From assembly GCF_006385175.1 (NCBI RefSeq), contig NZ_VFIY01000010.1, positions 62,001 to 126,000 of the forward strand: a DNA stretch of 64,000 nt, in the 5' to 3' direction. Under the pieces are notes generated by a model. That model was not told where the DNA came from and did no database searches. It worked only from the letters and a program-made list of their open reading frames with translations. Source of the DNA: Emcibacter nanhaiensis (GTDB taxonomy: Bacteria; Pseudomonadota; Alphaproteobacteria; Sphingomonadales; Emcibacteraceae). Each line of letters starts with the position of its first letter. Position 1 is the first letter of the stretch. This document shows positions 4,167-60,635 of the stretch, one piece after another. Both the position numbers and the translations under genes were made by a program.

Positions 4167-4862
4167 CTAGACGTAGGACAAGGCTTCCAGAAATCCTTCC
4201 TTGCCGTCCTTGCTGCCCTTTTCCTTGGATTTTTTATCTTTATCGCTGCAAGCATGGGCCTCGGGAGAAATCGGTGGCAACGGCAGGGCGCGGCTGACCG
4301 GCGGCAGTGGCTCAACTTCCGCCGCAGAAGCCGCCCTTGAGCTAAACGAACTTGCCACGCTCTCTGCGTGGGCGGTCGCTGCGGCAGCGATTTTTTCCGC
4401 ATGCAGGCGTTCCGCTTCCCTCACCACCCGGCGAACTTCACGCTCGGCGCGATGAATTTCAAGGGAGATCTCCACCCTCATCTCTTCGCGCAGGGCTTCC
4501 GGAATACGCTCCATCTCCTCGACTTCCGCCAGGGATTCTTCCAGATCGGCCAGGCGATCCTCATGAAGGCTCATGACTTTTTCGACCTGCTCGAGAGTGA
4601 TCTCCACCGACCGCTCCAGTGCAGCCGCACTGCGCTCATCCATAAACTGCCGGGCGTGGAAGACAAAGTCGTCGCCGGCGACCACCTCGACCCGAATGAC
4701 AGGATCAACAGCTTCATTCATGCCGACGAACTCGAAGTCCCTGCGGGTTTCCTTGGTATTCAGCACGGAACCTGCCACAGATGACAGACCACCAACCAGC
4801 AGCATGGCGATGGCCAGGCCGGTCAGTTTTTCCGTCACTGTGATATTCCGTTTTTTCCTCAT
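4167..4862 (-). CDS. Unknown membrane-anchored coiled-coil protein
   Basis: 231 residues; I do not recognise a family. A basic start (MRKKRNITVTEK) is followed by one hydrophobic segment, LTGLAIAMLLVGGLSSVAGSV, a signal anchor or signal peptide. The middle (about residues 75-155) is long, highly charged and heptad-like, rich in E, R and L (LADLEESLAEVEEMERIPEA and onward), consistent with a coiled coil. The C-terminal third is Ala/Ser/Pro-rich and then Lys-rich (DKDKKSKEKGSKDGKE). The protein is probably exported or membrane-tethered with the coiled coil in the periplasm. It is a single-gene unit with its own terminator. Function unknown. Confidence 0.7.
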   Translation of the reverse strand: MRKKRNITVTEKLTGLAIAMLLVGGLSSVAGSVLNTKETRRDFEFVGMNEAVDPVIRVEVVAGDDFVFHARQFMDERSAAALERSVEITLEQVEKVMSLHEDRLADLEESLAEVEEMERIPEALREEMRVEISLEIHRAEREVRRVVREAERLHAEKIAAAATAHAESVASSFSSRAASAAEVEPLPPVSRALPLPPISPEAHACSDKDKKSKEKGSKDGKEGFLEALSYV

Positions 4863-4995: not shown

Positions 4996-6822
4996 TCAGA
5001 AATAGCGGGCCACCCGAAGCTGGATGAAATCGTCCTGCGACAAGCCATAAATGGGGTCGGCCACGGGCACATTCAGGAACAGCCGGGCGTCCAGGCTGAC
5101 CTTCCAGAAGTCGCCGATCCGCCGGCTGCCTTCAATGTTAAGCAGCTTGGCGGAGGTGTTCATGTCGAAGATGGCGCCGACCAGCAGCTCGGTGCTCTGC
5201 TCGTCGTTGGCGGTCCAGCGCAGGCCGACAAACAGGTCGTCCTCAAGGAAACTGGTGGCCAGGTCGCCGCGGTCGTCATAATTGTATTCCACCAGCACGC
5301 CGAGGTCGGAATAGCCGCCGCCGAGGCCATAGAAAGTATATTCCAGGCCGCCGGCAAAGGCCCAGAAGTCATCGCCCCAGGCTGCCGTGCCGTTGTTGGT
5401 CTGGTAAATGCCCTCGAATTTCCACAGGAAGCCGCCGCGGGTCGCCTGGATATCGAAGCCGGTCTGGTGGATCTGGCGATAATAGGGGATCAGCACCATA
5501 TTGCCGGCCCCGTCCAGCCCGAGCATAAATTCGGGATCACGGGCGGTGCCCTGGAAATGATAGAGCCCGAGGTCAAAGTCGCCGATCACATGGGACCAGC
5601 GGATCGCCCAGTCCGGATGCCATTCCTCGTCACCGGACTGATACATCGTCTGGTCATAATCCACCGGCAGCGGCATGCGCAAACGTCCGCCGGCGCCCGG
5701 GAATTTGCGCTCCCGGAAATAGGTCATCAGATAGCCGGAGAAGGTACCCACCTCGGTGGTGTAGCTCAGGCTCAGCATGGGCTGGCCCAGCTTGTCTTCC
5801 TGGTCCACATCCTCAAGGAAGTCATCCTGGTTCAAGATATCCACCAGGTGATTGGATTCGGTGACGCCCCAGAAGACCGTATTGACCCCGGCTGTAACTG
5901 TCAGTTTGTCAAACACGCCCAGCCATTTGAATTCCCGGACGTCGAAATGACTGCGGTCGTCATCCTGGGCGTCCAGGCGGCCGAACAGGTCGGCGACGAA
6001 AATATGGTTGCCGTCTTCGGAGACATATTCCAGCCGCGGCTCCGCCGCCACGGACAGGGTCCAGTCTTCCGGTTCCGGATAGAAGGAGGTCTGGGGATAA
6101 ACCCGGCCCTCGGCCTCCACATAGCCGGAAAAGTCAAACCCGTTATATTCGTCTTCATAGACGGTTTCGTTATATTGTTCCTCGGCCATGGGGGCCATTT
6201 CTGCCGCAAAGGGGGACGGCTCTTCCATGGGCTCCGCTTCCGGCACCGGCTCGGCCACGGGCGCCGGTTCGGCCGGCATCTCCGGAACGGGCTCCGGTTC
6301 CGGGACAGGTTCCGGTTCAGGGGCTGGTGGCTGGCTGGCCAGAACCTGGCGTGACCATTCCGCCTCGCTCACCGGCAACAGGTCGAACACGAGGCGGTGC
6401 GGACGGCCGTCCACTGCCCGCAGGCCGAAGGTGCGCGACACCGTGGCCGGGCGGCGCAGGGTGATTTCGAGACGGAAACTGTCCTCCAGGTTGCGGACCT
6501 CAACGTCCTTCAGCAGGCCCACTGCCTCGGCCCGTTCGGTCAGGGCCGGTGTAATCGGCTCGCCGGCCTTGTCTTTCAGCTCAATGATAATGCGGCGCGG
6601 ACCCTCCAGATAGCTGACCGCATAGGGCGCCTGCTGGCTGAGGTCCACCACAAGACGGGTCATGTCGGGATGTTTGCCGGAACGGACCGCCAGGACTTCC
6701 GCGTCGGCCGTCGTACCGCTAAGGGCGGCCGTCAATGACAGAGCGGCGACAGCGGTGCTGCGGCCCAAACGCCGTTTCAGTACGGCATTTGCTTTTCCGT
6801 TTCCAGTATCGGTCTTGCGCAC
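4996..6822 (-). CDS. Envelope trio 1: AMIN domain fused to an outer-membrane beta-barrel
   Basis: About 608 residues if begun at the GTG at 6822. An ATG at 6900 extends the frame but gives an odd leader and no good ribosome site, whereas the GTG has GGGG six bases upstream and is followed directly by a signal peptide ending near TTADA. Residues about 43-135 (EVLAVRSGKHPDMTRLVVDL, then GPRRIIIELKD, then RPHRLVFDLLP) are an AMIN domain, which in AmiC and PilQ localises proteins to peptidoglycan. A Pro/Glu linker (PEPEPVPEPEPVPEMP) of about 50 residues leads into a barrel of about 380 residues with alternating aromatic strands, the VFWGVTES motif and a C-terminal Phe (RVARYF), as in outer-membrane proteins. 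The barrel resembles the DUF1302-type barrel of trio 2 at 58455-59816. It lies downstream of the LolA-like and RND genes with the same order. Inferred role: outer-membrane end of the RND/LolA-like relay. Confidence 0.75.
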   Translation of the reverse strand: MRKTDTGNGKANAVLKRRLGRSTAVAALSLTAALSGTTADAEVLAVRSGKHPDMTRLVVDLSQQAPYAVSYLEGPRRIIIELKDKAGEPITPALTERAEAVGLLKDVEVRNLEDSFRLEITLRRPATVSRTFGLRAVDGRPHRLVFDLLPVSEAEWSRQVLASQPPAPEPEPVPEPEPVPEMPAEPAPVAEPVPEAEPMEEPSPFAAEMAPMAEEQYNETVYEDEYNGFDFSGYVEAEGRVYPQTSFYPEPEDWTLSVAAEPRLEYVSEDGNHIFVADLFGRLDAQDDDRSHFDVREFKWLGVFDKLTVTAGVNTVFWGVTESNHLVDILNQDDFLEDVDQEDKLGQPMLSLSYTTEVGTFSGYLMTYFRERKFPGAGGRLRMPLPVDYDQTMYQSGDEEWHPDWAIRWSHVIGDFDLGLYHFQGTARDPEFMLGLDGAGNMVLIPYYRQIHQTGFDIQATRGGFLWKFEGIYQTNNGTAAWGDDFWAFAGGLEYTFYGLGGGYSDLGVLVEYNYDDRGDLATSFLEDDLFVGLRWTANDEQSTELLVGAIFDMNTSAKLLNIEGSRRIGDFWKVSLDARLFLNVPVADPIYGLSQDDFIQLRVARYF

Positions 6823-6973
6823 GAATAACCCCGTCTTTTTATCATTGATTCTCGGAAACTTTTGCAGAAACAAATGTAGAAGGAGATAAAAACTCAGCAT
6901 ATTTAAATAGTTCTTTCGAGGTATTTAAATAAACTTGTGAGCTTTCTTCCTCAACCTGCTCAGTTCCTTAAGG

Positions 6974-6992
6974 TTAATCCGGCATTAACCAT
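6974..6992 (+). promoter_or_regulatory. CtrA-type box upstream of trio 1 barrel gene
   Basis: TTAA, seven bases (tccggca), then TTAACCAT: an exact match to the alphaproteobacterial CtrA consensus TTAA-N7-TTAAC. It lies 150 bp upstream of the GTG at 6822, in the 6823-7096 gap, and suggests that the barrel gene has its own cell-cycle-linked promoter besides read-through from the LolA-like gene. The match is seen; binding is inferred. Confidence 0.45.
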
Positions 6993-7041
6993 AATTCAGA
7001 GACAAGATTAGCGGACAGCAACCATAAATAAAGGGGAAAGT

Positions 7042-7065
7042 CCGGCATTTTTTAGCAAATGCCGG
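7042..7065 (-). terminator. Hairpin after the trio 1 LolA-like gene
   Basis: A perfect 9-bp stem (CCGGCATTT / AAATGCCGG) with a 6-base loop, starting 32 bp after the LolA-like stop. On the minus strand the following bases are ACTTTCCCCTTTATTT, a poor but T-containing tail. It is a weak terminator or an RNA-stability element that would lower expression of the barrel gene relative to the two upstream genes. Confidence 0.5.
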
Positions 7066-7096
7066 GAATCTCGCAGGAAATAAGGGGTTTCGAATG

Positions 7097-7915
7097 TTAC
7101 TTCGCCGTCTTCATTCGGGACTTGGTAAAGTCGATATCTTCCAGCCCCTGCTGAAAATCATAGCGACTCATGAGCAGGCGTGTGGTTTTACCGGTCAGCT
7201 TGTTAACCATGTAAAGCTCGTGGGCGCGCCAATATTTGTCCAGATATTTCTGGTACTTGCTCATAATCAGGGTTTTGAAGTGAGCCCCGCCGCGATTGAA
7301 AAATTCGATCTTATGGACTCGATATTCATCCGTATCAATCCAGGAAATAATCTTGGTATAGCCGGATCCTTCATAAAGCGGATAGGATTCCACCACATGG
7401 CAGGTCATGCTGCCGCAGGCTTCGTCCCGTAGCCATTTGTAGCTGTATTTCCCCACTTCGCGGGAGGACATGTCCTCGTAGGAAAATTCGCTGCCCATGA
7501 ACGGGCCGGACTTGCTGCGGCTGTCGATGCGCTTGATACGGCCCTTCTGGCCCAGCGCCGGAAAATAAATCCACTGGTCGTCCGGCTCGAGGATCTTGGA
7601 ATGGGTCAGCAGCACAGTACCTTTGACATCCGGCGGCCGGTCGAAAATTACTAGTGATTTGTCGCCCAGATCCCGATCCTCGACCTCGAGGGTTTTGATT
7701 TTGAGATAGCGCATGCTGGTCTTGCCCTGCCTGTTGGTCAGGATCATTTCCAGTTCGGTAACGCTGTCGCCATAGCCCAGATCGCGGCGATCCATTTCTT
7801 CGGCAATCGCCAGTCCTTTTTCTTCCGCTGTCTCGGCCATGGCCGGCGCGGACAGGCCGGGAAGGCCCGCCAGCAAAAGGAGGGAGAGGAAAGCGGCAGC
7901 TTTAGGCATTTGCAT
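7097..7915 (-). CDS. Envelope trio 1: LolA-like outer-membrane lipoprotein-sorting protein
   Basis: About 272 residues. The start chosen is the ATG at 7915 (AGGA ten bases upstream), inside the end of the RND gene, so the two are translationally coupled. A signal peptide (MPKAAAFLSLLLLAGLPGLSAPAMA) is followed by a LolA/LolB-like half-barrel sequence: DSVTELEMILTNRQGKTSMRY, then PPDVKGTVLLTHS, then DDQWIYFPALGQKGRI, then GSEFSYEDMS. These are hallmarks of the 'outer membrane lipoprotein-sorting protein' family (PF17131-like), which are soluble periplasmic lipid carriers usually next to MMPL-type RND permeases. Two cysteines near the middle (ACGSMTC) could form a disulfide. Homologous to 59850-60635. 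Inferred role: it takes a hydrophobic cargo from the RND permease and carries it across the periplasm. Confidence 0.85.
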   Translation of the reverse strand: MQMPKAAAFLSLLLLAGLPGLSAPAMAETAEEKGLAIAEEMDRRDLGYGDSVTELEMILTNRQGKTSMRYLKIKTLEVEDRDLGDKSLVIFDRPPDVKGTVLLTHSKILEPDDQWIYFPALGQKGRIKRIDSRSKSGPFMGSEFSYEDMSSREVGKYSYKWLRDEACGSMTCHVVESYPLYEGSGYTKIISWIDTDEYRVHKIEFFNRGGAHFKTLIMSKYQKYLDKYWRAHELYMVNKLTGKTTRLLMSRYDFQQGLEDIDFTKSRMKTAK

Positions 7916-10223
7916 CTTTTTTCGATCCTTTTTTGTCAACAAACAACAGTATGGTCGGCAGCAGCAGGAAGTCGGTCACCAGCGCCACGGCAATGATCAG
8001 CGCCGTCAGGAGCCCCATCTTCGCATTGATAAGATAGTCGGAGAATCCCAAGGTCACAAATCCACAGATAAGAACCAGCGAAGAGATCCACAAGGGGGAA
8101 CCGACCATGGCAAAAGCGTAGCGTACGGAATCCTCCGGACCCAATCCTTTCTCGAGGCTGCCCCGCCGGTATTTACTGAGAAAATGCACGGTACAATCCA
8201 CAATCAGGCCGAGCGCGGTCGCGGTCACAGCGGAGGCAAAAATCCCCAGCCTGCCGTCAATGATCGCCCAGAGGCCAAAGGCCGCGACAGCCGGCAATAC
8301 GTTGGGTACAATACTGATCAGTCCCAGCCTGAAACTGCGTAGCGCCGCGACCAGGCACAGGGAAATCAGCACAAAGGCCACCCCCGTCCCGACCATCATG
8401 CTGTCAAAGGTCCGGCGGGTCAGGTAAGCAAAGATAATCCCCGGACTGGTGCCGCCCGGCGTCATGATGCGGCCCTCGCCCTGCCGGGCGTCAAACCATT
8501 CCCTGGTCCGCTCTGTCAGCGCCTTCATGTCCGTCGTGTTCACATCGCCCAGGCTTGCCGTCACCCGGGTTGCCGACTTGCCGATATCGATCTGATTGTT
8601 GAGGTCAAGGCCGTAGGGCAAGGACATTTCATAGAGAAGAAGATACTGGGCCGCCAGATTGCGCTCTTCAGGCAATTTATACCAGGCGGGATCATCGCCG
8701 TGCATGTTTTTGTTGAGCCGCTTCATGACATCAACAATGGAGAAGACATGGACCACTTCGGGCTGGGCTTCCAACCAGTCGGTAAATTCCTGCAGTTGCT
8801 TCATATAGTCGGGATTTGCAATCCCGCCTTCCTCTCCGGAGGAGACGGAGAGTTCCATGGTGTAGGGGCCGACCAGGTTATCGAGCATGAACTCGGAGTC
8901 CTTGCGGAATTCAACATTCTTGGAAAAGAAGGAGATGAAATTATCATAATATTCAAGCCGGGGAATGAATGCGGCCACCGCAACACAGGACACGATCATG
9001 CCCACCAGAATGGTGTTGCGCCGCTCAATCACCCACTCCACATAGTTTTCCAGTACGATATGCTCCCGCCTGGTTTCGCCCAGGGGGCCCGTTGGCAAAA
9101 TTGCCAGAAGCGACGGCAGCAGGGTGATGGCGAAAAACCAGGCTGCAAAAACCCCGATGGCCGAAATATTGCCGAGATGGTTGAAAGGCGGACTGTCATT
9201 GAAATTCAGGCTCAGAAACCCGATGGCCGTGGTGACCGAAGTTATGAACACCGGCTGGAAATTGATCCGCAGACTTTCGACAACAGCGTCCTTTTTGGCC
9301 ATGCCGCGCCGCATATGGACGTAGAATGTCGCCAGAAGATGAATAGTGTCAGCCACGGCGATTGTGACAATGATCACCGGCGAGGCGGCTGAAGCAACAT
9401 TGAGATAGAAGCCATAATGCCCGGTCAGACCGAGGGCAAAAAGCACCGAGGAAAAGACCACAACCATGCTGATGACCATGCCGGAGACCGAGCGCAGGAA
9501 GATCAGCAGCGTGAGTGCAATGACTGCGAACATCACGGGAATCAGTGTTTCCGAATCCGCTTCCGACGCTTCAGACATGGACAGCGACATCACCACCGTG
9601 CCCGAAAGGGCAACTTCAACATCCGGATGGTCCTTTTCAATCTGCGCCGCCATGGCGCGGATCGGTGCGACGATCTTCTTCAGGGTATCGGGCTGGGTAT
9701 CGGCAGGCTGGACCGTGACCATGATTTGCGTTGTCCGGCCGTCTTCCGACACCAGCCGGTTGACCAGGGACGGTTCGTTCAAGGCAATAGCGCGGATTTT
9801 TTCCAGATCTGCGTCCGTGAGATCGGCGGCATCCCTGACCAGGTCATCCACATAAAGGTCGTCGCCCTCAGCTTCGGTATGCTGAAAGTTGGTCAGGCTG
9901 TCCACCCGGCTGACGGCTGGAAAGGTCCAGGCCTGCTCGGTCACATCCTTGATGATGCCAAGCATCTGCCGCGAAAAAACGCTCTTTTCAGAGGAATAGA
10001 GGCCGATCGTCACCAAGTCGACTTTGGAATAGTTGGCTTCCAGGTCATCCTGGGTGGCAAGCTGCGGGTTATCCGGGCCGAAAAAAATCCGGTAGTCGGT
10101 ATTAAAGCCCAGCTTGGTTACGCCGGCCCCTACGAGGCCGGCCAACAGGAGGCACAGGAAAGCCACAATCCAGCGCCAGCGGACGATAAACCTGCCATAG
10201 GATATAATATATTTGTCCGACAT
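7902..10223 (-). CDS. Envelope trio 1: MMPL-type RND superfamily transporter
   Basis: 773 residues, inner membrane. Layout is one N-terminal TM (WRWIVAFLCLLLAGLVGAGVTKLGF), a large periplasmic domain, TM2-6 (LTLLIFLRSVSGMVISMVVVF and onward), a second periplasmic domain and TM8-12, the duplicated sterol-sensing/MMPL layout. VADTIHLLATF and TTAIGFLSLNF are family signatures. At about 770 residues it is smaller than HAE1 pumps and matches the HpnN/MmpL lipid-exporter branch. GGGGAG precedes the ATG. It is the first gene of the operon; the 107-bp gap upstream holds its promoter, including an inverted repeat GTCAG-TTGT-CTGAC at 10253-10266 that could be an operator. Cargo unknown; a lipid, hopanoid or lipoprotein-like molecule is inferred from family and partner genes. 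Confidence 0.85.
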   Translation of the reverse strand: MSDKYIISYGRFIVRWRWIVAFLCLLLAGLVGAGVTKLGFNTDYRIFFGPDNPQLATQDDLEANYSKVDLVTIGLYSSEKSVFSRQMLGIIKDVTEQAWTFPAVSRVDSLTNFQHTEAEGDDLYVDDLVRDAADLTDADLEKIRAIALNEPSLVNRLVSEDGRTTQIMVTVQPADTQPDTLKKIVAPIRAMAAQIEKDHPDVEVALSGTVVMSLSMSEASEADSETLIPVMFAVIALTLLIFLRSVSGMVISMVVVFSSVLFALGLTGHYGFYLNVASAASPVIIVTIAVADTIHLLATFYVHMRRGMAKKDAVVESLRINFQPVFITSVTTAIGFLSLNFNDSPPFNHLGNISAIGVFAAWFFAITLLPSLLAILPTGPLGETRREHIVLENYVEWVIERRNTILVGMIVSCVAVAAFIPRLEYYDNFISFFSKNVEFRKDSEFMLDNLVGPYTMELSVSSGEEGGIANPDYMKQLQEFTDWLEAQPEVVHVFSIVDVMKRLNKNMHGDDPAWYKLPEERNLAAQYLLLYEMSLPYGLDLNNQIDIGKSATRVTASLGDVNTTDMKALTERTREWFDARQGEGRIMTPGGTSPGIIFAYLTRRTFDSMMVGTGVAFVLISLCLVAALRSFRLGLISIVPNVLPAVAAFGLWAIIDGRLGIFASAVTATALGLIVDCTVHFLSKYRRGSLEKGLGPEDSVRYAFAMVGSPLWISSLVLICGFVTLGFSDYLINAKMGLLTALIIAVALVTDFLLLPTILLFVDKKGSKKDANA

Positions 10224-10330: not shown

Positions 10331-13300
10331 CTACCATACAATTTTTTCGATACCGTCGAAGGCGACCTCGCCGCCATCATCGAAAACGATGGTGCCGGCA
10401 GAATCGTCGCTAAGCAGCATTTCGCCGGAAGCATTGTCGACGGACTGAATCGAGTCACCATTGTCCAGGGTCAGGGTCCAGCCCTGTTCGGCAGCGCTGC
10501 CGCCAAAGCCGCTCAGCTCGATGGTATCGGTCCAGCCGGCGCCGCCTGAAGCGGTGTCAGACCCGTCATTGGGGCCGAAAATGAACATGTCATTGCCGTC
10601 GCCGCCAAACATGGTGTCGTTACCAGCCCCGCCGGTCAGTGTATCGTCGCCGGTGGAGGTCCAGAGTGTGTCATTACCCTCGCCGCCATCAACGCTCACA
10701 CCCTCGTCATAGGTATATTTGCTGGATGTCATGTCGAGAATATCGTCACCACCACCCATGTGGATTTCCTCGATATTCTGGATACGAGCCTGTTCACCGG
10801 TGGCAAAGTCACTGATGCCGTCATCCAGGAACAGGGCGTCATCGCCATCGGTGCCCTGCAGCACGTCATGACCACTGCCGCCGTCAAACACATCGCTGGA
10901 CCGGTTGTAGCCGCTGAGGGAGACATTTTCGCCCGTTTCCACGTTGTGGGCCGCATAGCCGGACCAGGTACTGTCGGCGTTATATTGCAGCGTATCATCG
11001 CCACCCGCCCCCTGAATATCCTGGGCGCCAGCGGTGCCTTCCAGCATCTGATCGGCGATTTCAACATTGATGGCCTGGGTGGTCGAGGCTGAATCACCAC
11101 CGACCCCATCCGTCGAAGTGGTTGTTACCTGAAGGGCAAAATCGTCAGAACCGGTGGCCGGCTGAACGGTCAAATTGTCCAGATCCCAACCACTGATGTC
11201 CACACTGCCGTTTTCCGCTGTGGCGGTAAAGCTGTTGGCACCGTCACTCAGCACCGCACCCTCGGGAATGGCAGAGATGCTAACCGCCAGGCTTTCTGAT
11301 CCGTCGAAGTCGCCGGCCCCGATGCTAATCCGGGGAAGAGCGCTCGCACTGCCCACATCGGCAGTTACCGATTGCGGCTGGTCCGGTGTGATAGAAACAT
11401 CCACCTGGGTATTGACGTCGGTATAGTCTCCGTCGCCGCCACCATAGAGGTCCTCCCAGTTCTGGTTCCCTGCTGAAGCGGAGTCCGAGAAGTGATCGTA
11501 ACCGTCCGGATTCAGGCTTTGATCGCTGAAATAAGCCGGCGCACTCCTGCCGCTCAGGGGCTGGCCATCCACCATGGGTGTCCAGACGCCGTCGATATTG
11601 TCGAAAGTAACTTGGTCACCGTCGGCAAGAGCAGAATTCTGCCTGTCCCCGTCCGGAATGATAAAGAACCCGAGCGTGACCCCACCTTCATAGTCGGAGG
11701 TGTCAATCGTGACGGTCTTGTCATCGCCATCCTTCACATTGTCCTGAATGATCGCGCCGCCAATCGGGTTGCCGTCCGCATCGGCAACATAAAAGCCGTG
11801 TGAGTTGTTGTACCCGGCGTCGACGCCAAAATAGGAAACGTCAATGCTGATCACGCCGTCAGCGGGAATATCATAGTTCCCGTGGTCCGGATCCAGAACC
11901 AGTGTGCTGGACATCTGCATTTCCGGCACGTCGGCCACAGCCGTCACATCGATGGACGCGGTGGAGGACACGGTCTCGGTACCGTCGGTGACGTCGAAAC
12001 TGACAGGAACCTCATCGCCCGAGAAATCCGCTTTCGGCTCAAATGTCCAGGTACCGTCCCCGTTATCGGAAACTGTCCCGAACGCCGGGTCGACGCTGAC
12101 GCTGCTGACTGACAAGCTGTCGCCATCCACGTCGGACGCGTTGGCAAGAAGCTGATCGGCGCTGAAGGTGATTGAGGTGTCCTCGTTTGTTGCGCCAAGG
12201 TCCACCGAGCCCACCACCGGACCGTCATTGTCCGGCGCCACAGTAAGGGTCACCGTACCGCTGTCGGTCAGGGAGCCGTCGCTCAGAGTATAACTGAAGC
12301 TGTCTTCCCCGTGGAAGTCTTCCGCCGGCGTATAGGTAAATGAGCCGTCAGTTGCGATCTCCACGGCGCCGCCATTTGCGGTTTCGATCGTCTCCGCCAC
12401 CACAGAGAGTGCATCACCGTCGACATCCGTATCGTTAGTCAGGACATTACCCGCAATCGCCTGGTCTTCGGTACCGGCAAAACTGTCCGCCGCCGCGACC
12501 GGGCTCTCATTGACATCGTCAATATTGACCACGAGTTCAGCAGTGTCAGAACCACCATTGCCATCAGACACCTCAATGGTCAGGCTGCGTGAAGCCTGGG
12601 TGTCGTGATCAAGCAGACTGCCATCCGCGACCGTCACTTCACCGCTCTGGGGATCGATGGCAAAGGCGCCATCGTCGTTACCGGCCGTGATGGCATAGGT
12701 CAATGCATCACCGTCGATATCGGTTGCCGAAATGGTCGCCGCTTCCGTACCGTCCGGTGCGCCTTCGGCAACAGACGTTACCAGCTGCGCGCCATCGGAC
12801 AGCACATCCGGCGCCTCTGTGTAGGAAACGGACTTTACCGTAAACTCGGAATTATCGCCGGAGGACTGGCCGGTCGCATCAGTAGCCTCGACCACAATCT
12901 TCGCCACCGGGACATCGCCGGTTTCAAGATCATAGGAGAAACTGCTGCCACTCAGCCTTGTACCGGTTTCGGGGGTCAGGCTACCGCTGGCAATTTCGTT
13001 GCCGTCCGCGTCATAGGCTGTCCATTTGCCCTGCTCTCCGCCGGGAAATTCATTTTCAATCTGGCGATCCGTCACCAGACCAACATCCGTCACCGGATTG
13101 TCAAAGGTCAGCACCAGCTGTTCACTGTTGCCAGTGGCGGGATCATAGTCGATTTGTGTGTCGATGCGCTCGCCCTGGATGCCGATCCCATCCCCGGACG
13201 TCTGCAGTCGTGCCGCACTCCCGTCAGTGGAAAATCCTTCGATTGTCACATTGTCACCAAGCTGCCCGGACCTACCGTCCACATTCAGAACAACTGTATT

Positions 13301-16300
13301 GGTGTCCACGCTTACCGGAGCGTTCCCATCAATCGAGACAGTAATGACCGGAGCATCATTGTCAGCCGTCACTGTCAGGGTAGCTGTCGCCTCTGTAACG
13401 CCGCCGTTACCATCCACCACGTCATAGGTCATGGACAGTTCGCCGTTGAAGTCGGCGCCCGGCTGGAAGGTCCAGCTGCCGTCCGCATTGGGCGCCAGGG
13501 CGCTGTAATCAGCAACCGGCACATCTGACATGTCAAACTGCAGGGAGCCGGACCAGGCCATGGTCTCGCGCCCATCGATCACATCTGAAGAGCGGGCGTA
13601 GCTGGCGTCCTCGGCCTCCAGGGTCACGCCGCCGACAAAGCCGCCGTTACCGTCCTGGGTGCCGCCCACGTTGATCTTGTCGACAATCAGGTTTCTGTCT
13701 TCACCGGCTACACCGTCCCCATCCCTGTCCCCGGTGCCTTCCCAGGCATCATTGACAAAGCGCACATCTATGGAGTCAACTTCGGTGCCCGCAGGCAGAT
13801 CGAAACTGAAATACTCCCAGTCGCCGCGCTCAGCGGTCACATCAAAGCGGGTTTCTCCATTCACCTCAACCAGTTCGCCGTTGACATAGATCTCGAATTC
13901 AGGAGAGCCAACGCCCACATCCTCGACATTGTTCGGATCATAATGGTCGCCGGAAATTTTCAGGGTCACCGGGATATCGGTATCCTGATTCCCGATCCGC
14001 AGGTTTGTTACGGACAGGACATCCCCATCCGCGTCGGAAGCATTCGCCAGCAAGTCTGCGGGCTGAATGACAATGGCTGTGTCTTCCGTAGTAGACAATT
14101 CAGGCGATGCCAACGCATCTACCTGCGGTCCATCATTCACAGCAATCACATCCAGCGAGGCCGTTGTGGACACAAAGTCAGTTCCGTCGGTTACTTCAAA
14201 ATTGAAGGGTACGTCGGTACCATTGAAGTTTTCGGCCGGGGTGAAAGTCCAGGTGCCGTCGCCGTTATCGGTCAGGGAGCCATATTGCTCGTCCACATTT
14301 ACCTCGGTGACCGCCAGAATATCGCCATCGACATCGGACGCATTGGCCAGCAGGTCCTCGGCAGAGAAAGTCATTGACGTATCCTCGTCAATAGCGCCGA
14401 GATCGACCGCTTCCGCGACAGGACCGTCATTGGCGCCGGTCACGGTAATGTCCATGCCGGCCACGTCGCTGCTGCCGTTACCGTCGGACACCTCGAACTC
14501 GAAGCTCACCGCGCGTTCCTCGCCCTCGGCCAGATCATCAAAATCAGTGCCCGGATCAAAGCTGTAGCTACCGTCGGCATTGACGGTGACACTGCCGGAT
14601 TCCGGACCACTGACCAGGCTGTAGGTCACCTCATCACCATCCACGTCGGTAGCGTGGAGCTGGTCATGAAGGATCACATTTTCTCCGGTCACAGCTTCGC
14701 TCTCTGCAGCCACCGGGCCGTCATTGACGGCAATCACATCCAGAGATGCCGTGGAGGAGACAAAATCGGTGCCGTCGGTCACTTCGAAATTGAACGGCAC
14801 ATCGGCGCCATTGAAGTTCTCGGCCGGGGTGAAAGTCCAGGTATCATCCCCGTTGTCAGCAAGCGTCCCGTAGACCGGATCAACAGTCACATCGATCACT
14901 GCCAACACATCACCGTCAAGATCGGAAGCATTGGCCAGGAGATCGTCAGCACTGAAAGTGAGTGACGTATCCTCATCGGTCGCCCCCAGATCAACCGCAC
15001 CAGCCTCGGGAGCATGGTTCGCGGCAACCCCAGGTTCTTCCGCACCTCCCCCGTCAGCCGTGCCGTCTTCACCGGTGGTTTCGTCGCCCGCCAGTATGTC
15101 TTCACCGGCATTGACGGTTTCGCCGTCATCGACCGGCGTCTCTTCCAGATCAGCCACACTCAGTACAAAGTCCCTGCTGACTTCAGCACCGCCGGAATCC
15201 CGCGACGTAACGGTAACCGTTACGCTATCTTCCGCTTCGTGATCCAGGCTTACACCGTCCTTCAGCTTCAGGGAGCCGTCCACCACTTCGAACCGGTCAT
15301 CGCTGACCGTATAGCTGTGGCTGTCGCTCGCATCGGGATCGCTGGTAGACAGGGTGCCGACGGTCGCACCCTCATCATTTTCAAACAGGCTGTTATCGGA
15401 CAGGGCGATATCCACCGGCGCATCATTGTTGCCGGTTATAGTGAGTGTAGCGGTCGCCGTATCGCTTTGCCCGTTGCGGTCGCGCACGGTGTAAGCAATG
15501 GTGACAGTCTCGCTTTCCCCATCGCCAAGGTAATCGTATGAGCTGCCGGGATTGAAAATAACCTTTTGACCGTCATGGGTGACGGCACCGGCGCCCTCTG
15601 CGAGTTCGACACCGGAAATGACGAGCTGCCCGCCGCCCGGGGCCGTGTCGTTGGCCAGGACGTCAAGAGAAACGGTGGCATCTTCATCGCTGTCAAAACT
15701 GTCGTCTTCTGCGACGGGCAGTTCGTTGTCAGCGCCGGTTGTTCCACTGTCTGCCGAAGCATTGTTTTCCGGGGCAGCCTCCTGAGGCGCCTCATCGGAA
15801 GCATCACCTTCTGCACCTTCATTTTCATCAGAAGCAAAAACTTGCTCTTCAGGTACAGCTGGCCGATTTTCAAATTCCGGGGTTGCACCCAAAATTTCTT
15901 CATAAAGTTCGTTGCTGAGCTTGTTGAGCGGCGTCTCGATGGTCGGGGCATTTTCCATGCCTTCCAGATCAAGCGGCGCCGCCGTCGTACCGGAGGAAAA
16001 TGTCGGTTCCTTGCGCGCGCTGTCATCGTCCATGTCAACCTGGGTTTCCTGGGCGGGCTCACCCCTGGAAACCAGGGAACTGACCCTGCTCAGGAACGAA
16101 TGCAGGGGAGAAGGAGCACCCTGTCCTTCTTCCTGTGCGGCCGCCTGGTCGTCAGTGATGCCGTGCTGTTCCGGAAAGCCTGACCCCTCGGTCTGGTCAC
16201 CGCCCAGATGAATGTTGGAGCGCGTATGAGTATCCTGGGTACCCTCGTCACTGTCCTCCCCCATGGAAACGCGGGGACGTTCGGTCTTTTTTACCTGATC

Positions 16301-16375
16301 CGCGCCCTGCAGGACGGGATCCAGTTCGATATCGAAAGCCTTTGAACTGTTATTTCCAGACTCACCAGTGGACAT
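10331..16375 (-). CDS. Giant Ca-binding cadherin/VCBS-like repeat protein with RTX-type C-terminus
   Basis: 2014 residues, very acidic, no Sec signal; the predicted substrate of the divergent type I system. The N-terminal ~200 residues are low-complexity and acidic. From about residue 220 come repeats with the EDxxxxxxxxDLLANASDxDGD and NDGP signatures (cadherin/tandem-95 and VCBS-like), three of them near-identical. About residues 795-910 resemble a Ca-dependent xylan-binding module (FEIYVNGELVEVNG, then WEYFSFDLP, then EDRNLIVDKINVGG). About 1490-1640 (GFYVADADGNPIGGAIIQDN, then LGFFIIPDG) resemble DUF4114. The last ~200 residues hold RTX-type nonapeptides (GGAGNDTMFGGDGNDMF) and the typical C-terminal secretion region ending DGIEKIVW. 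Likely a secreted or surface adhesin for biofilm or polysaccharide attachment. The upstream gap is shared with the secretion operon. Confidence 0.88.
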   Translation of the reverse strand: MSTGESGNNSSKAFDIELDPVLQGADQVKKTERPRVSMGEDSDEGTQDTHTRSNIHLGGDQTEGSGFPEQHGITDDQAAAQEEGQGAPSPLHSFLSRVSSLVSRGEPAQETQVDMDDDSARKEPTFSSGTTAAPLDLEGMENAPTIETPLNKLSNELYEEILGATPEFENRPAVPEEQVFASDENEGAEGDASDEAPQEAAPENNASADSGTTGADNELPVAEDDSFDSDEDATVSLDVLANDTAPGGGQLVISGVELAEGAGAVTHDGQKVIFNPGSSYDYLGDGESETVTIAYTVRDRNGQSDTATATLTITGNNDAPVDIALSDNSLFENDEGATVGTLSTSDPDASDSHSYTVSDDRFEVVDGSLKLKDGVSLDHEAEDSVTVTVTSRDSGGAEVSRDFVLSVADLEETPVDDGETVNAGEDILAGDETTGEDGTADGGGAEEPGVAANHAPEAGAVDLGATDEDTSLTFSADDLLANASDLDGDVLAVIDVTVDPVYGTLADNGDDTWTFTPAENFNGADVPFNFEVTDGTDFVSSTASLDVIAVNDGPVAAESEAVTGENVILHDQLHATDVDGDEVTYSLVSGPESGSVTVNADGSYSFDPGTDFDDLAEGEERAVSFEFEVSDGNGSSDVAGMDITVTGANDGPVAEAVDLGAIDEDTSMTFSAEDLLANASDVDGDILAVTEVNVDEQYGSLTDNGDGTWTFTPAENFNGTDVPFNFEVTDGTDFVSTTASLDVIAVNDGPQVDALASPELSTTEDTAIVIQPADLLANASDADGDVLSVTNLRIGNQDTDIPVTLKISGDHYDPNNVEDVGVGSPEFEIYVNGELVEVNGETRFDVTAERGDWEYFSFDLPAGTEVDSIDVRFVNDAWEGTGDRDGDGVAGEDRNLIVDKINVGGTQDGNGGFVGGVTLEAEDASYARSSDVIDGRETMAWSGSLQFDMSDVPVADYSALAPNADGSWTFQPGADFNGELSMTYDVVDGNGGVTEATATLTVTADNDAPVITVSIDGNAPVSVDTNTVVLNVDGRSGQLGDNVTIEGFSTDGSAARLQTSGDGIGIQGERIDTQIDYDPATGNSEQLVLTFDNPVTDVGLVTDRQIENEFPGGEQGKWTAYDADGNEIASGSLTPETGTRLSGSSFSYDLETGDVPVAKIVVEATDATGQSSGDNSEFTVKSVSYTEAPDVLSDGAQLVTSVAEGAPDGTEAATISATDIDGDALTYAITAGNDDGAFAIDPQSGEVTVADGSLLDHDTQASRSLTIEVSDGNGGSDTAELVVNIDDVNESPVAAADSFAGTEDQAIAGNVLTNDTDVDGDALSVVAETIETANGGAVEIATDGSFTYTPAEDFHGEDSFSYTLSDGSLTDSGTVTLTVAPDNDGPVVGSVDLGATNEDTSITFSADQLLANASDVDGDSLSVSSVSVDPAFGTVSDNGDGTWTFEPKADFSGDEVPVSFDVTDGTETVSSTASIDVTAVADVPEMQMSSTLVLDPDHGNYDIPADGVISIDVSYFGVDAGYNNSHGFYVADADGNPIGGAIIQDNVKDGDDKTVTIDTSDYEGGVTLGFFIIPDGDRQNSALADGDQVTFDNIDGVWTPMVDGQPLSGRSAPAYFSDQSLNPDGYDHFSDSASAGNQNWEDLYGGGDGDYTDVNTQVDVSITPDQPQSVTADVGSASALPRISIGAGDFDGSESLAVSISAIPEGAVLSDGANSFTATAENGSVDISGWDLDNLTVQPATGSDDFALQVTTTSTDGVGGDSASTTQAINVEIADQMLEGTAGAQDIQGAGGDDTLQYNADSTWSGYAAHNVETGENVSLSGYNRSSDVFDGGSGHDVLQGTDGDDALFLDDGISDFATGEQARIQNIEEIHMGGGDDILDMTSSKYTYDEGVSVDGGEGNDTLWTSTGDDTLTGGAGNDTMFGGDGNDMFIFGPNDGSDTASGGAGWTDTIELSGFGGSAAEQGWTLTLDNGDSIQSVDNASGEMLLSDDSAGTIVFDDGGEVAFDGIEKIVW
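11936..12209 (-). repeat. Cadherin-like repeat unit C of the giant adhesin
   Basis: Encodes the block from DLGATNEDTSITFSADQLLA to SSTASIDVTAV, a diverged copy of units A and B further upstream in the protein. Boundaries are approximate and set by the conserved EDTS and TDGTE motifs. Confidence 0.7.
14127..14413 (-). repeat. Cadherin-like repeat unit B of the giant adhesin
   Basis: Encodes AVDLGAIDEDTSMTFSAEDL through STTASLDVIAVNDGP. DNA runs such as 'tcggccggggtgaaagtcca' are shared exactly with unit A about 580 bp away, so the copies are recent or homogenised and could recombine. Confidence 0.75.
14714..14999 (-). repeat. Cadherin-like repeat unit A of the giant adhesin
   Basis: Encodes AVDLGATDEDTSLTFSADDL through SSTASLDVIAVNDGP. 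It is near-identical in protein and largely identical in DNA to unit B; a VCBS-like unit (GENVILHDQLHATDVDGDEV) separates them. Confidence 0.75.
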
Positions 16376-16683: not shown

Positions 16684-18477
16684 ATGAAATCCGGTTTCCT
16701 CCGGGCACCCCAGGTTTCAGTTATTGTCCCGCGGTTAACCATAAAAGTTGTATTGTTTATGATAAAAAGCGCAGATAGTACCGGCAATAAACTGGACTCG
16801 ATGGGGTTCATGCCCATCCTCAGAAAAGACATCCTGACAGCATCTCTGGTGCTGAATGCCCTCTCCCTGGCATTACCGATGGTCCTGCTGCAGGTTTACG
16901 ACCGGATTATTCCCAATGCGGCCCTGAATACCCTCAGCCTGTTGATCCTTGGTCTTTTGGGCGTCCTTCTCATCGATATTCTGTTGCGCACCGCCCGGGC
17001 CTACCTGGCCGGCTGGATCGGCGCCAAATATGAACATGACATGGGTTGCCGGGCCCTGGAACGGATCCTCGGTTCACGGCTGCAGGATCTGGAAAAAATC
17101 TCCTCCGGCGTTCATCTCGACAGGTTCGGCGCCATTGACTCCGTTCGCGACTTTTATGCCAGCCAGGCAGGCCTGACCCTGGTGGACCTGCCTTTTGTGT
17201 TTCTGTTCCTGGGCCTGCTGGGGGTCATCGGCGGTTACCTGCTGATCGTGCCGGTGTGCCTGCTGATTATCCTCGGCGCCATCGCTTTTACACTGGGTGT
17301 ACGGCTCAAGGACGCCATCGAAAAAGACGCCATCTGGGAGGATCGCCGATACAGCTTTATTATCGAAGTGCTGGGCGGCATCCATTCGGTCAAGAGCATG
17401 GCCATGGAACATCTTATGGACCGCAGGTACGAGAAGCTGCTCGAAAGCTGCTCTGCCGCGAGCTACAATGTGATATTCCTGAACGGCCTCGCCCAGGGGA
17501 TTGGCAATATTTTCTCGCAGATCACCATGATCGCGGTCGCCAGCATCGGCAGCCTGCTGGTGATCAGCGGCGATATCACCATGGGGGCTCTGGCCGCCAG
17601 CACCCTGCTGGCCGGACGTACCGTTCAACCCCTGTTGCGCGCTCTGAGCATCTGGACCCGGTTCCAGCATATTCAGATCGCCCAGGACAAGCTTGCCGCC
17701 ATTGACGGCCTGCAGCCGGAACGAACACAGGAAGTTTCCGACATTGACCGGATCAACTCCATCGAACTGAAGAACCTGTCCTTCAGCTACAGCAAAGATA
17801 TGCCCCCCATACTACGCGAGGTGAATCTCAAGGTGGAAAGCGGTCAGGTTGTGGGGATTCGCGGCGGCAACGGCTCCGGTAAATCCACCCTTCTGTGGGC
17901 CCTCATGGCGGGCCTCGAGCCCCAGGAAGGAAAAATCCTGGTCAACGGCAAGGATCCCGCCCGGTTCTCTACAGAAAGTCTGCGCCAGCGTATTGCCTAC
18001 CTGCCTCAGCGGCCGATCATGTTCCAGGGCACGATCCTGGACAACCTGACCATGTTCCGCGGCGATGAGCATATTGACGATGCCCTGAATGTCGCCGAAT
18101 TACTGCATCTGGACAGCATTCTCGCCCGAATGCCCGACGGCTATGAAACCCGCATCGGCGACGGAGCGCAAAATGAACTGCCCGCCGGGATCGCCCAGAG
18201 GATTGCCATCGCCCGCACCCTGGCCAGCGAACCGGATGTCATCCTGTTTGACGAAGCCAACTCCGGTCTCGACAACAAGTCCGACGAAGACCTGTACAGA
18301 CTGATGAGCGGTCTCAAGGGCACTTGCACCATGGTGCTGGTCAGCTACCGGCCGTCCCTGCTCAAACTGGCTGACAAGCTGTATGACCTGAAAAACGGCA
18401 CGCTCACAGCTGTCGGTCCAAATAACAGCAAACCGAAAAGCACAAAAGCACCCGGCAAGGGAGGGGAAAGCGCATGA
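16684..18477 (+). CDS. Type I secretion ABC transporter subunit 1 (degenerate H-loop)
   Basis: 597 residues; inner-membrane half-transporter with about six TM segments then an ATPase. No N-terminal C39-like domain. The start at 16684 has AGGA three bases upstream; ATG at 16759 (MIKSADST) would give a more usual N-terminus but lacks a site. Walker A GGNGSGKST is near residue 395 and Walker B VILFDEANSGLD near 523. The signature position reads LPAGIAQR instead of LSGGQ, and the H-loop His is Tyr (VLVSYRPS, about 553). It overlaps the second ABC gene by 4 bp (ATGA). Altered motifs plus a neighbouring second ABC gene suggest a heterodimer with unequal ATP sites, exporting the giant repeat protein. 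Confidence 0.88.
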   Translation: MKSGFLRAPQVSVIVPRLTIKVVLFMIKSADSTGNKLDSMGFMPILRKDILTASLVLNALSLALPMVLLQVYDRIIPNAALNTLSLLILGLLGVLLIDILLRTARAYLAGWIGAKYEHDMGCRALERILGSRLQDLEKISSGVHLDRFGAIDSVRDFYASQAGLTLVDLPFVFLFLGLLGVIGGYLLIVPVCLLIILGAIAFTLGVRLKDAIEKDAIWEDRRYSFIIEVLGGIHSVKSMAMEHLMDRRYEKLLESCSAASYNVIFLNGLAQGIGNIFSQITMIAVASIGSLLVISGDITMGALAASTLLAGRTVQPLLRALSIWTRFQHIQIAQDKLAAIDGLQPERTQEVSDIDRINSIELKNLSFSYSKDMPPILREVNLKVESGQVVGIRGGNGSGKSTLLWALMAGLEPQEGKILVNGKDPARFSTESLRQRIAYLPQRPIMFQGTILDNLTMFRGDEHIDDALNVAELLHLDSILARMPDGYETRIGDGAQNELPAGIAQRIAIARTLASEPDVILFDEANSGLDNKSDEDLYRLMSGLKGTCTMVLVSYRPSLLKLADKLYDLKNGTLTAVGPNNSKPKSTKAPGKGGESA

Positions 18478-20741
18478 GCGATACACCTCCTATTGATCCT
18501 ACGAACATAGAATTTGACAAGGTTCCCACCAACAAGGGACCGGCCCGGGATATGATTGACTCGCTCAATGACCGGTTCCGGGATTCCGTCAGCCTGAAGG
18601 TGACCAAAGCCGACCAGCTTGCCGAGGCGCTGCAGTCAGGACAGATCGGTTCGTTTCATGCCTCATCGGATTATGCCGCCTGCCTGCTGCCGCTGTTGCA
18701 GGCGCTCGGCTGGCGCGGACAATTGCGTCGGTTGTTTGAGTCCCTGCCCCATTTCGCTGACGGACTGGAACTGACCGAATTCCGCAATACCCTGGCAAAC
18801 CTGCACTATAGAACCGATCCGGTGCAGGTTGAACTGGCCTCCATTGATCCGCGCCTGTTCCCCTGCCTGTTTGTCCAGAACGACAAGCCCATCGTCATTC
18901 TGTCCAGGGACCGCGAGGGCATTCGTTATTTTGACAGTGCCGACCAGCAGGAAAAGCTCACCGACGGCCGGAAGCAGGTCGGCACCGCCTATTTCATTTC
19001 GACAAAACACGGCACCCAGACCAACAAGCTGGACGAGGACCTGGCACCGGCAAACTGGGTCAAGGACCTGTTCCTGCGGTTCAAGGGCACCATCAAGCAG
19101 ATGTTCGCCATGACACTGATGCTGAACCTGTTTGCCCTGCTGGTGCCGCTGTTTATTATGGCCATCTACGATCAGGTGATTCCGTCCCAGTCCGGCATGT
19201 CACTGGTTTACCTCCTGTCCGGCATCACCCTGGCAATCTGCTGTGAAATAGGCCTCCGGATCCTGCGTGCACGCCAGACGGCCTATCTGGGCGCCCGGGT
19301 GGAAAATATTGTCGCCAATGCCACGTTCCAGAAACTCCTGTCCCTGTCGCCGATGATGACGGAATCTGCCCCCATCGGCAGCCAGGTGTCCCGCCTCAAG
19401 GAATTCGACGCCATCAAGGGCCTGTTTTCCAGTACTCTGGTCAATGTTATCCTTGAGCTGCCGTTTGTGGTCCTGTTCCTGGCCCTGATCGCCATCCTGG
19501 GCGGCACCCTGGCCTATATTCCCATCGCCATGATGGGGATCTTCGGCCTTGTCGCCATGATCATGATCCCCGCCATGAAACGCAATGTGGCGTCTTCAAG
19601 CCGGGCCCGCGCCCGCCGTCACAGTTTCCTGGTGGAGGCCCTGTCCAACCTCAGGACCATCAAGCAGACCGCGGCCGAAAACCCCTGGCTGGACAGATAC
19701 CGCAACCTGTCGGCGGAAACGGCCTATACCCATTTCCGCTCCGCCCAGGTTTCCCTGCTGCTGCAGAGCCTGGCCCAAGCCATTATGATGGGCGCCGGTA
19801 TCGCCACTGTCGGTTTCGGCGTGCTGAAAGTAATTGACGGCAACATGACCGTTGGTGCCCTGATCGCCTGCATGGCCCTGGTCTGGCGGGTGCTCTCCCC
19901 GCTGCAGAGCCTGTTTCTGACCCTGAGCCGGCTGGAGCAGACCCTGAACAGCATCAAGCAGATCAACCAGTTGATGAAAATCCCGTCCGAGGACGACCTT
20001 CTGCCGAACAGCCTGACCCAGAGGACCTTTGCCGGCAACCTGGTCATGGACCGGACCAGCTTCCGCTACAAGGCGGATGCTGAACCTGCCCTGCTGGGTG
20101 CCGGGTTCCGCCTCAATGCCGGTGAAATGATGGCCATCATGGGACCCAACGCCGCCGGCAAGTCGACCATCCTGAAACTTCTGATCGCCATGCACAAACC
20201 GCAGGCCGGGCAGATTATCCTGGACGGCATGGATATCCGCCAGATCAATCCGGCGATCCTGCGCCAGTCCATCGCCTATGTGCCGCAGCAGAGCCACTTC
20301 TTCCACGGCACCATCGCCCAGAACCTGCGCCTGGCCCAGCCGATGGCTTCGCTGGTGGACTTGGAGGAAGCCTGCTGGATGGCCAACGTCCTGGATGAAG
20401 TTCTCGCCCTGCCGCAGGGATTCGAGACCCGGATCGGTGACCAGTCCATTCAAAGTCTGCCGTCCAGTTTCAAACAACGCCTGTCGCTGGCCCGGGCCTT
20501 CCTGAAACGGGCAAATATCATGCTTCTGGATGAACCGGCCAAAACCCTGGATTATGAAGGCGACCAGGCCTTCATGAGAACGCTCGCCACCCTGAAAGGC
20601 AGTTGCACCATCATTATGGTGTCGCATCGACCGAGCCATATCAAAATGGCCGACAAGGTGCTGGTGCTTGAGGACGGCCTTGTAAAGAATTTCGGTCCGC
20701 CGCAGTCCATTTTCCCGGAAACAGCGCCGCAGACCGCATAG
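18474..20741 (+). CDS. Type I secretion ABC transporter subunit 2 with C39-like domain (LapB-like)
   Basis: 755 residues. Residues about 45-190 form an inactive C39-peptidase-like domain (SSDYAACLLPLLQALGWRG, then DNDKP-like strand QNDKPIVILSRDREGIRYFD), which in LapB/HlyB-type exporters holds the substrate; no complete Cys-His catalytic pair is apparent. Six TM segments follow from about 215, then an ATPase with Walker A GPNAAGKST near 556, signature region SLPSSFKQRLSLARAF, Walker B IMLLDEPAKTLD near 684 and a normal H-loop His (IIMVSHRPSH) near 718. It starts within the stop of subunit 1 and is followed 22 bp later by the HlyD adaptor. Probable partner of subunit 1 in one export complex. 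Confidence 0.9.
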   Translation: MSDTPPIDPTNIEFDKVPTNKGPARDMIDSLNDRFRDSVSLKVTKADQLAEALQSGQIGSFHASSDYAACLLPLLQALGWRGQLRRLFESLPHFADGLELTEFRNTLANLHYRTDPVQVELASIDPRLFPCLFVQNDKPIVILSRDREGIRYFDSADQQEKLTDGRKQVGTAYFISTKHGTQTNKLDEDLAPANWVKDLFLRFKGTIKQMFAMTLMLNLFALLVPLFIMAIYDQVIPSQSGMSLVYLLSGITLAICCEIGLRILRARQTAYLGARVENIVANATFQKLLSLSPMMTESAPIGSQVSRLKEFDAIKGLFSSTLVNVILELPFVVLFLALIAILGGTLAYIPIAMMGIFGLVAMIMIPAMKRNVASSSRARARRHSFLVEALSNLRTIKQTAAENPWLDRYRNLSAETAYTHFRSAQVSLLLQSLAQAIMMGAGIATVGFGVLKVIDGNMTVGALIACMALVWRVLSPLQSLFLTLSRLEQTLNSIKQINQLMKIPSEDDLLPNSLTQRTFAGNLVMDRTSFRYKADAEPALLGAGFRLNAGEMMAIMGPNAAGKSTILKLLIAMHKPQAGQIILDGMDIRQINPAILRQSIAYVPQQSHFFHGTIAQNLRLAQPMASLVDLEEACWMANVLDEVLALPQGFETRIGDQSIQSLPSSFKQRLSLARAFLKRANIMLLDEPAKTLDYEGDQAFMRTLATLKGSCTIIMVSHRPSHIKMADKVLVLEDGLVKNFGPPQSIFPETAPQTA

Positions 20742-20763
20742 CAGCCAGAGAAAAGGCAATAAG

Positions 20764-58304: not shown

Positions 58305-58454
58305 ATTCTCCTGTGCAGGGTGTCCCTCAAACCCTTGCATCACTAGTATGTGACCAACTTAAAGCAGTAGTTCCTAACTTTTTATGAATAAACCGCACTG
58401 CAAAACATATTGCATTTTTCTTATATTATAAATACTTACCGCAGATGCGAAGAA

Positions 58455-59816: not shown

Positions 59817-59849
59817 TTTTCTTTGTTTTACAGCCAAATGCAGCCCGGG

Positions 59850-60635
59850 TTATTTCAGGTATTTGCGCGGGGCCTTCCTGAGGTAGCGTTCGGTGAAGAT
59901 ATCCTCCGGCAGATCCACATCATATTTGACCTCACTATAGCTCATTGTGGTTTTGCCGCCACTGACGTTGTCGCTCATCTGCGACGCGGTCACAGTCGGA
60001 TGCCCGTCAACCATTTCCACCTTCAACGCCGTGTAGGTCCGGTAGTTGCGACCGTTCTCGTCGTAATATTCGGTCTTGATGGGCAGGAAGGTGGCTTTGT
60101 GGATCCAGTTCACATAATAGGCAAACTCGACCTTGCCGGTATCCTTGGGCACACTCTTGATCTTATAGAGCTCGTCGGTTTCCTCCACCAGTTCATGGGT
60201 ATCCTCTTCAATCCCGCGGCCGGAAACATCTTCATAAAAGAAGTGTGAGCCGACGAAGCTGGTGCGTTCGTCACTGGCGGCGATCCGTTTTACCAGGTCC
60301 AGGGCCGGCAGGTAGAGCCAGCGGTCGTCATCCCGGTCAACATTCTTCCACACCATGAAGGCCATCTTCTTCACATCAGCCGGCTTGTTGAAATAAACGT
60401 AGAACTTCTGCCCGGTATCGGCCTCTTCATCGTCCCGGCGCAGGATCACAAACTGGCGCGAACGGCTGCGTCCCTGGTCGTCCAGGATTTCCATGTCCAC
60501 CATGGCGCGTCCGTCATTGCCCTGGTAATAGGAGGTGTGGTTGGCTTTCTTGACGACCTCCATCACGTCCTGGGCCTGGGCAGCCCCGGCAAAAAGGATC
60601 AGCGGAAAAACAAGGGTTGCGAATAATTTCTTCAT
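59850..60635 (-). CDS. Envelope trio 2: LolA-like outer-membrane lipoprotein-sorting protein
   Basis: 261 residues. Signal peptide MKKLFATLVFPLILFAGAAQA; NGDGRAMVDMEILDDQGRSRSRQF-type strand set (here NDGRAMVDMEI), KPADVKKMAFMVW, DRWLYLPALDLVKRI, FVGSHFFYEDVSGRGIEED. The 'W(L/I)Y(L/F)PAL' and 'GS.F.YED.S' motifs are shared with 7097-7915. ATGA overlap with the RND stop and AGGA site. A periplasmic hydrophobic-cargo carrier is inferred. Confidence 0.88.
   Translation of the reverse strand: MKKLFATLVFPLILFAGAAQAQDVMEVVKKANHTSYYQGNDGRAMVDMEILDDQGRSRSRQFVILRRDDEEADTGQKFYVYFNKPADVKKMAFMVWKNVDRDDDRWLYLPALDLVKRIAASDERTSFVGSHFFYEDVSGRGIEEDTHELVEETDELYKIKSVPKDTGKVEFAYYVNWIHKATFLPIKTEYYDENGRNYRTYTALKVEMVDGHPTVTASQMSDNVSGGKTTMSYSEVKYDVDLPEDIFTERYLRKAPRKYLK

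Follow-up and report, generated by a model that had tools for sequence, protein, structure and literature searches.

Genes of the locus

The window, by which we mean the whole stretch of DNA analysed (64,000 nt of Emcibacter nanhaiensis, contig NZ_VFIY01000010.1, 62,001 to 126,000), holds the following features, with positions counted from its first letter:

4167..4862, minus strand: signal-anchored, helix-rich protein of 231 aa (profile match to a syntenic family, 6.7e-12)
4996..6900, minus strand: protein of 634 aa with an AMIN domain, a Pro-rich linker and a porin-like barrel (Pfam AMIN, structure model)
7097..7915, minus strand: periplasmic LolA-fold carrier, PF17131 (Pfam, structure model)
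7902..10223, minus strand: MMPL/HAE3-like RND permease of 773 aa (Pfam MMPL)
10331..16375, minus strand: giant RTX/cadherin-repeat surface protein of 2014 aa (Pfam Cadherin_5, Big_9, HemolysinCabind)
16684..22197, plus strand: type I secretion genes in divergent orientation, encoding an HlyD adaptor and two ABC transporters (Pfam)
58455..59837, minus strand: second-cassette barrel, a remote DUF1302 relative (hhalign probability 97%, E 2.8e-11)
59850..60635, minus strand: second-cassette LolA_like carrier (PF17131, 196.7 bits)
60632..63262, minus strand: second-cassette RND permease of 876 aa (MMPL, 123.8 bits)

A permease, a LolA-like carrier and a barrel with a C-terminal Phe had been described at 4996-10223 by a sequence-only reading of this DNA, and ORFs and Pfam matches place all three there, on one strand. 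The coupled carrier start proposed inside the permease gene is also borne out: the carrier ORF (7097-7915/7942, minus strand) has its likely start at the ATG at 7915, overlapping the last codons of the permease by 14 nt. The true start of the barrel ORF (4996-6900) may be further in. Two neighbours had been overlooked, namely the RTX gene, which shares the permease's strand and ends 107 nt before that gene begins, and the conserved 231-aa gene after the barrel, just 3' of which the terminator scan found a terminator-like stem (4137-4114). The 231-aa protein belongs to a syntenic, Pfam-less family found downstream of the AMIN-barrel at 11 loci, and the C-terminal end of the family is conserved as ..F.WI or ..LS.V. 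The type I secretion genes probably serve the RTX protein. An Rfam scan of the window found no RNA element. Nearby OlsB-like, MutS, GlnD and MurJ genes (identified by eye) were considered as cargo genes and judged to be a housekeeping locus. Elsewhere in the window (56067-58343, minus strand) lies a 758-aa protein in which an ammonium-transporter-like membrane domain is fused to a histidine kinase, as read by eye from the translation.

The permease scores 122.4 bits against Pfam MMPL (cut-off 20.5), with two MMPL stretches and similarity to Patched/sterol-sensing proteins, and stays under the cut-offs of the NCBIfam models for HAE3 (TIGR00921, 148.6 bits against 351.9), the HpnN equivalog (130.7 against 751.9) and BstA (30 against 1400). 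Hydropathy indicates two large periplasmic regions, at about residues 37-224 and 424-609. Asp676 in TM10 is present in 76 of 76 permease homologues and Asp292 in TM4 in 69 of 76, a pair that we take to be the pattern expected for proton coupling in RND pumps.

The carrier matches PF17131 (LolA_like) at 190.6 bits, far above the Pfam cut-off of 30, and DUF1329 at 16.3 bits, under the cut-off of 23.1; NCBIfam, including its curated LolA, gave no match, and a search of viral contigs for relatives returned none. Its model (pLDDT 88) superposes on Vibrio parahaemolyticus 3bk5 at 0.9 Å and compares with P. gingivalis LolA3 (9tp6) at TM 0.80/0.90, with a range of 0.78-0.92 for 9tp6 and the DUF1329 protein 4z48, versus a TM of only about 0.4 to true LolA. 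The sequence-only reading had depended on a hydrophobic cavity in the LolA-like fold and is not contradicted on this point: the model fits LolA-fold crystal structures, and in LolA3, its second-best match, the groove is reported to be hydrophobic (PMC13103446). Scoring of the hydrophobic faces of the carrier's own strands gave a mixed alternation, which says little by itself.

In the barrel protein the AMIN domain scores 29.3 bits against a Pfam cut-off of 20.5, and 15 of 25 members of the barrel family match the model; the chain ends in ...QLRVARYF. In the structure model (pLDDT 74), residues 69-176 form the AMIN beta-domain and the Pro-rich linker, modelled with low confidence, spans about 190-250; the barrel has 16-18 strands and resembles porins and AlgE at the fold level only. 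The most conserved stretch in the family alignment, WGVTES-HLVDI-NQ-D-LED-D-EDK-GQP, lies where the modelling is of low confidence. Membership in DUF1302 was rejected: there is no Pfam match and hhalign gives a probability of 16%, even though a shared WG-motif aligns. The AMIN domain on its long linker may fasten the barrel to peptidoglycan or offer a docking site for the carrier, and the fusion suggests a way to hold an outer-membrane exit port in register with the cell wall.

Conservation of the cassette and its relatives

Named genomes were scanned with the alignment of the carrier; at least 583 relatives were confirmed, the best 80 of which were analysed. Among these 80, an RND gene lies directly upstream of the carrier, or is fused to it, in 71 of the 79 testable loci, and a barrel gene immediately follows it in 73 of 77; at several named loci no RND gene adjoins the carrier. 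The hosts of this best-scoring set are Alpha- and Gammaproteobacteria, Desulfobacterota, Nitrospinota, Nitrospirota, Acidobacteriota and one Phycisphaerae MAG. Single-chain RND-LolA_like fusions occur at L098, L133 and L135, and at the contig-cut L105. A mirror-tree analysis of 76 sets gave pairwise distance correlations of 0.77/0.72/0.64 against a permutation maximum of 0.15; since shared ancestry is still contained in these values, we treat them as supporting evidence only. Co-occurrence of the three genes in related genomes, on which the sequence-only reading had staked its case, is thus found, and its notion of a unit spanning three compartments gains from the order kept across phyla, the fusions, the correlated divergence and the LolA fold. 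The RND-PF17131-barrel cassette is kept together in at least several hundred species, going by the at least 583 confirmed carrier loci, and the three genes therefore likely form one transport line. Three relatives, G001, G003 and G034, keep the LolA_like carrier and AMIN-barrel in an operon without RND, although each of their genomes encodes RND1-like proteins at other places. These operons and the several named loci without an adjacent RND count against the three-part line, since the permease could work in trans or not be required; in the three relatives, either an RND acts from another locus or the carrier and barrel serve some purpose by themselves.

Some individual arrangements differ. In G003 the RND is broken up into a pair of overlapping ORFs (398 and 369 aa), and a Nitrospirae genome (L114:1335-5929) has two different RND genes in tandem followed by one carrier gene. 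RND1-like permeases without carrier or barrel partners (L144:8604-10870 and L146:8370-10712) adjoin a PEP-CTERM/exosortase-like polysaccharide cluster with kinase, regulator, sugar transferase and acyltransferase genes, as identified by eye.

The barrel is carried by 41 of 289 genomes in our sample of the class. The AMIN fusion is present in 20 of 98 barrels examined, a count in which some named loci duplicate genome loci, and nearly all of the 20 are from the window's order, where plain barrels are also found; among the long ORFs fetched from the 40 other barrel-carrying class genomes, the sole AMIN match is weak and at a contig edge (G126, L168). The gap between carrier and barrel is usually about 200-400 nt in AMIN-type loci, compared with about zero otherwise.

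What had been taken for a second copy at 58455-63262 is a real set of a different subfamily, with a DUF1302-type barrel. Between the two sets the carriers match at about 66 bits and the permeases at about 135 bits, and the barrels give no phmmer match; the second type occurs in 19 of 101 genomes searched, in two of them weakly. Two more cassettes, of the Ame type (YCF48-like protein, RND, barrel, DUF1329), are found on contig C6, one with a clear DUF1302 barrel and the other with a 616-aa protein without Pfam match in this position. The genome therefore has four RND-LolA-fold cassettes in total, which probably serve different cargoes. The cassette with the 616-aa protein (L038:2161-10506) is directly followed by a methane/phenol/alkene hydroxylase (diiron monooxygenase) gene.

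Proposed transport line and competing explanations

From the gene content, gene order, folds, fusions, membrane Asp residues and regulator association obtained by computation we infer a physical complex, its direction, its cargo and a role for the AMIN domain. We propose, and hold to be fairly probable, that a hydrophobic compound is handed through three compartments along one proton-driven line. The permease would pick up the cargo in the inner membrane or the inner part of the periplasm; the LolA-fold carrier, translationally coupled to the RND and in some species fused to it, would receive it in its groove and cross the periplasm; and the porin-like barrel would release it into the outer membrane or let it through. 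In the majority of bacteria the TetR repressor beside the cassette probably induces it when a hydrophobic ligand accumulates, export or detoxification being the likeliest use. In the lineage of the window the cassette has a fixed chromosomal place behind the RTX adhesin gene, and AMIN would either anchor the barrel or present the docking site. The cargo is likely hydrophobic and possibly a lipid, and export appears more probable than uptake.

The neighbourhood of the cassette bears on these points. At 33 of 52 plain-barrel loci, all near the window's LolA subfamily, the gene immediately preceding the cassette encodes a TetR regulator; downstream, TetR occurs in at most 1 of 53 (upstream versus downstream, Fisher p about 1e-12). 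Among 53 downstream ORFs no family occurs more than twice, and no lipid-biosynthesis, catabolic or other metabolic partner recurs. Because of the TetR neighbour and the lack of a recurring metabolic partner, we prefer inducible transport of hydrophobic compounds to a dedicated lipid relay, and in its ancestral form the cassette resembles a transporter that is complete in itself and induced by its ligand. No TetR gene is found among the surrounding genes checked at the window cassette, and regulation therefore differs there. The TetR gene beside most cassettes and the lack of recurring biosynthetic neighbours fit the inducible transporter at least as well as an outward relay of lipid. A relay dedicated to bringing a single endogenous lipid of the envelope to the outer membrane, on the pattern of HpnN (hopanoids) or BstABC (bacterial sterols), would be in keeping with the LolA fold of the carrier, with the matches of the permease to the HpnN and BstA models, far under cut-offs as they are, and with the fixed, TetR-free and housekeeping-like locus of this lineage. 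We nevertheless consider it a minority possibility, since lipid-biosynthesis genes do not recur downstream, TetR dominates upstream, and the patchy distribution of the barrel in the class is odd for essential envelope biogenesis.

Transport in the opposite direction is also conceivable and in our view rather unlikely: the barrel would admit alkanes, fatty acids or detergent acyl chains, the carrier would bring them to the inner membrane and the RND would aid import or recycling. Such a line would agree with the induction of Thalassolituus oleivorans TOL_3187/3188 (42-fold / exclusively) on n-C28 alkane, read as uptake-related (PMC6304351), with the need for Pseudomonas putida PP_0765/0766 in growth on Tween 20 (PMC10866462), and with the diiron monooxygenase gene adjoining an Ame-type cassette of the same genome. 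However, an efflux system would be induced by its substrate as well, the genes beside the cassettes include no recurring catabolic one, and the HAE3 RNDs whose direction is known extract their cargo from the inner membrane (PMC6394551).

The association with the adhesin suggests two further readings. Where AMIN-type loci offer sufficient sequence, an RTX gene is in most of them the immediate upstream neighbour of the cassette, and divergent type I secretion genes stand beside it in the window, L047 and L052. In the window's family the cassette is followed by the 231-aa-type family and then by comM and MFS genes. At L055 and L060 it lies between gshB-like (by eye) and comM genes, and since other members of the order have these flanks, the cassette locus appears to be old and the RTX association newer. 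The proton-driven line could be extended to a peptidoglycan-anchored RND-LolA-barrel machine coupled to the type I-secreted giant adhesin, moving a hydrophobic compound to the outer membrane or surface together with it; this is doubtful, and if true the RTX protein, RND, carrier, AMIN-barrel and 231-aa protein would form one surface-building operon. Alternatively, the carrier and AMIN-barrel would mainly serve the adhesin, helping to retain it, anchor it or decorate it with lipid, and the RND would be of secondary importance. G003, where the RTX gene immediately precedes the LolA_like and AMIN-barrel genes despite loss of the RND, speaks for such an accessory role, as does the upstream position of RTX in most AMIN-type loci. 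We find it improbable, since L055, L056 and L060 have an AMIN-barrel without RTX, most plain-barrel cassettes have no RTX neighbour, several TolC-type proteins are available in the genome for type I secretion, and only related families show the association, which common descent can therefore explain. The possible link between adhesin and cassette is itself confounded by this shared descent. The barrel as a TolC substitute for type I secretion was rejected, being unnecessary in a genome with several OEP/TolC-type proteins. In G001 an RTX protein sharing the N-terminus of the window's RTX protein (L147:1-1302) lies ~3.4 kb downstream of a second-type cassette.

Sorting of lipoproteins by the carrier as a second LolA, as its fold and Pfam name might suggest, is very improbable given the missing NCBIfam match, the low similarity to true LolA, partners that are an RND and a barrel and not LolCDE/LolB, and the weak binding of LolB by P. 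gingivalis LolA3 (PMC13103446).

Comparison with known systems

The sequence-only reading had regarded the operon as an undescribed system, which does not hold, as AmeABCD, PP_0765/0766/2018/2019 and TOL_3187/3188 are published close analogues. The Castellaniella defragrans AmeABCD cassette likewise combines an HAE3 RND, a LolA-superfamily periplasmic protein and an outer-membrane barrel, and its deletion lowers monoterpene tolerance (PMC6394551). Its components are DUF1329, DUF1302 and a YCF48-like fourth protein, whereas the window locus has PF17131 and a barrel unassigned to DUF1302, and no YCF48-like protein was found in the window operon, in contrast to the two Ame-type cassettes of the genome. 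Since all three are missing, the window set would work like Ame without being an Ame system. PP_0765/0766/2018/2019 comprise a barrel, a LolA-fold protein, a periplasmic protein and an RND with linked phenotypes and predicted complexes (PMC10866462), but they are of the DUF1302/DUF1329 type and in two separate loci.

For the exact RND-PF17131-barrel architecture, the TOL_3187/3188 proteomics was the only literature found. There an MMPL permease with a LolA-like domain is immediately followed by a porin-like protein without conserved domain (PMC6304351), which, compared by architecture only, equals the fusion loci L098, L133 and L135; unlike in the window set, RND and LolA are one chain and no AMIN is reported. 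Such natural fusions offer a direct handle for structural work. HpnN and BstA share the HAE3-like RND fold and move lipids, the window permease being far under their equivalog cut-offs, and HpnN needs neither a periplasmic nor a barrel partner (PMC6394551). The carrier has its family and fold in common with 3bk5 and P. gingivalis LolA3 (9tp6). The cassette bears on the passage of hydrophobic molecules through the periplasm in RND-driven transport. Systems that combine RND, LolA-fold protein and barrel are already known and have been connected with hydrocarbons, terpenes and detergents, and what is new here is the AMIN-barrel variant and its genomic setting.
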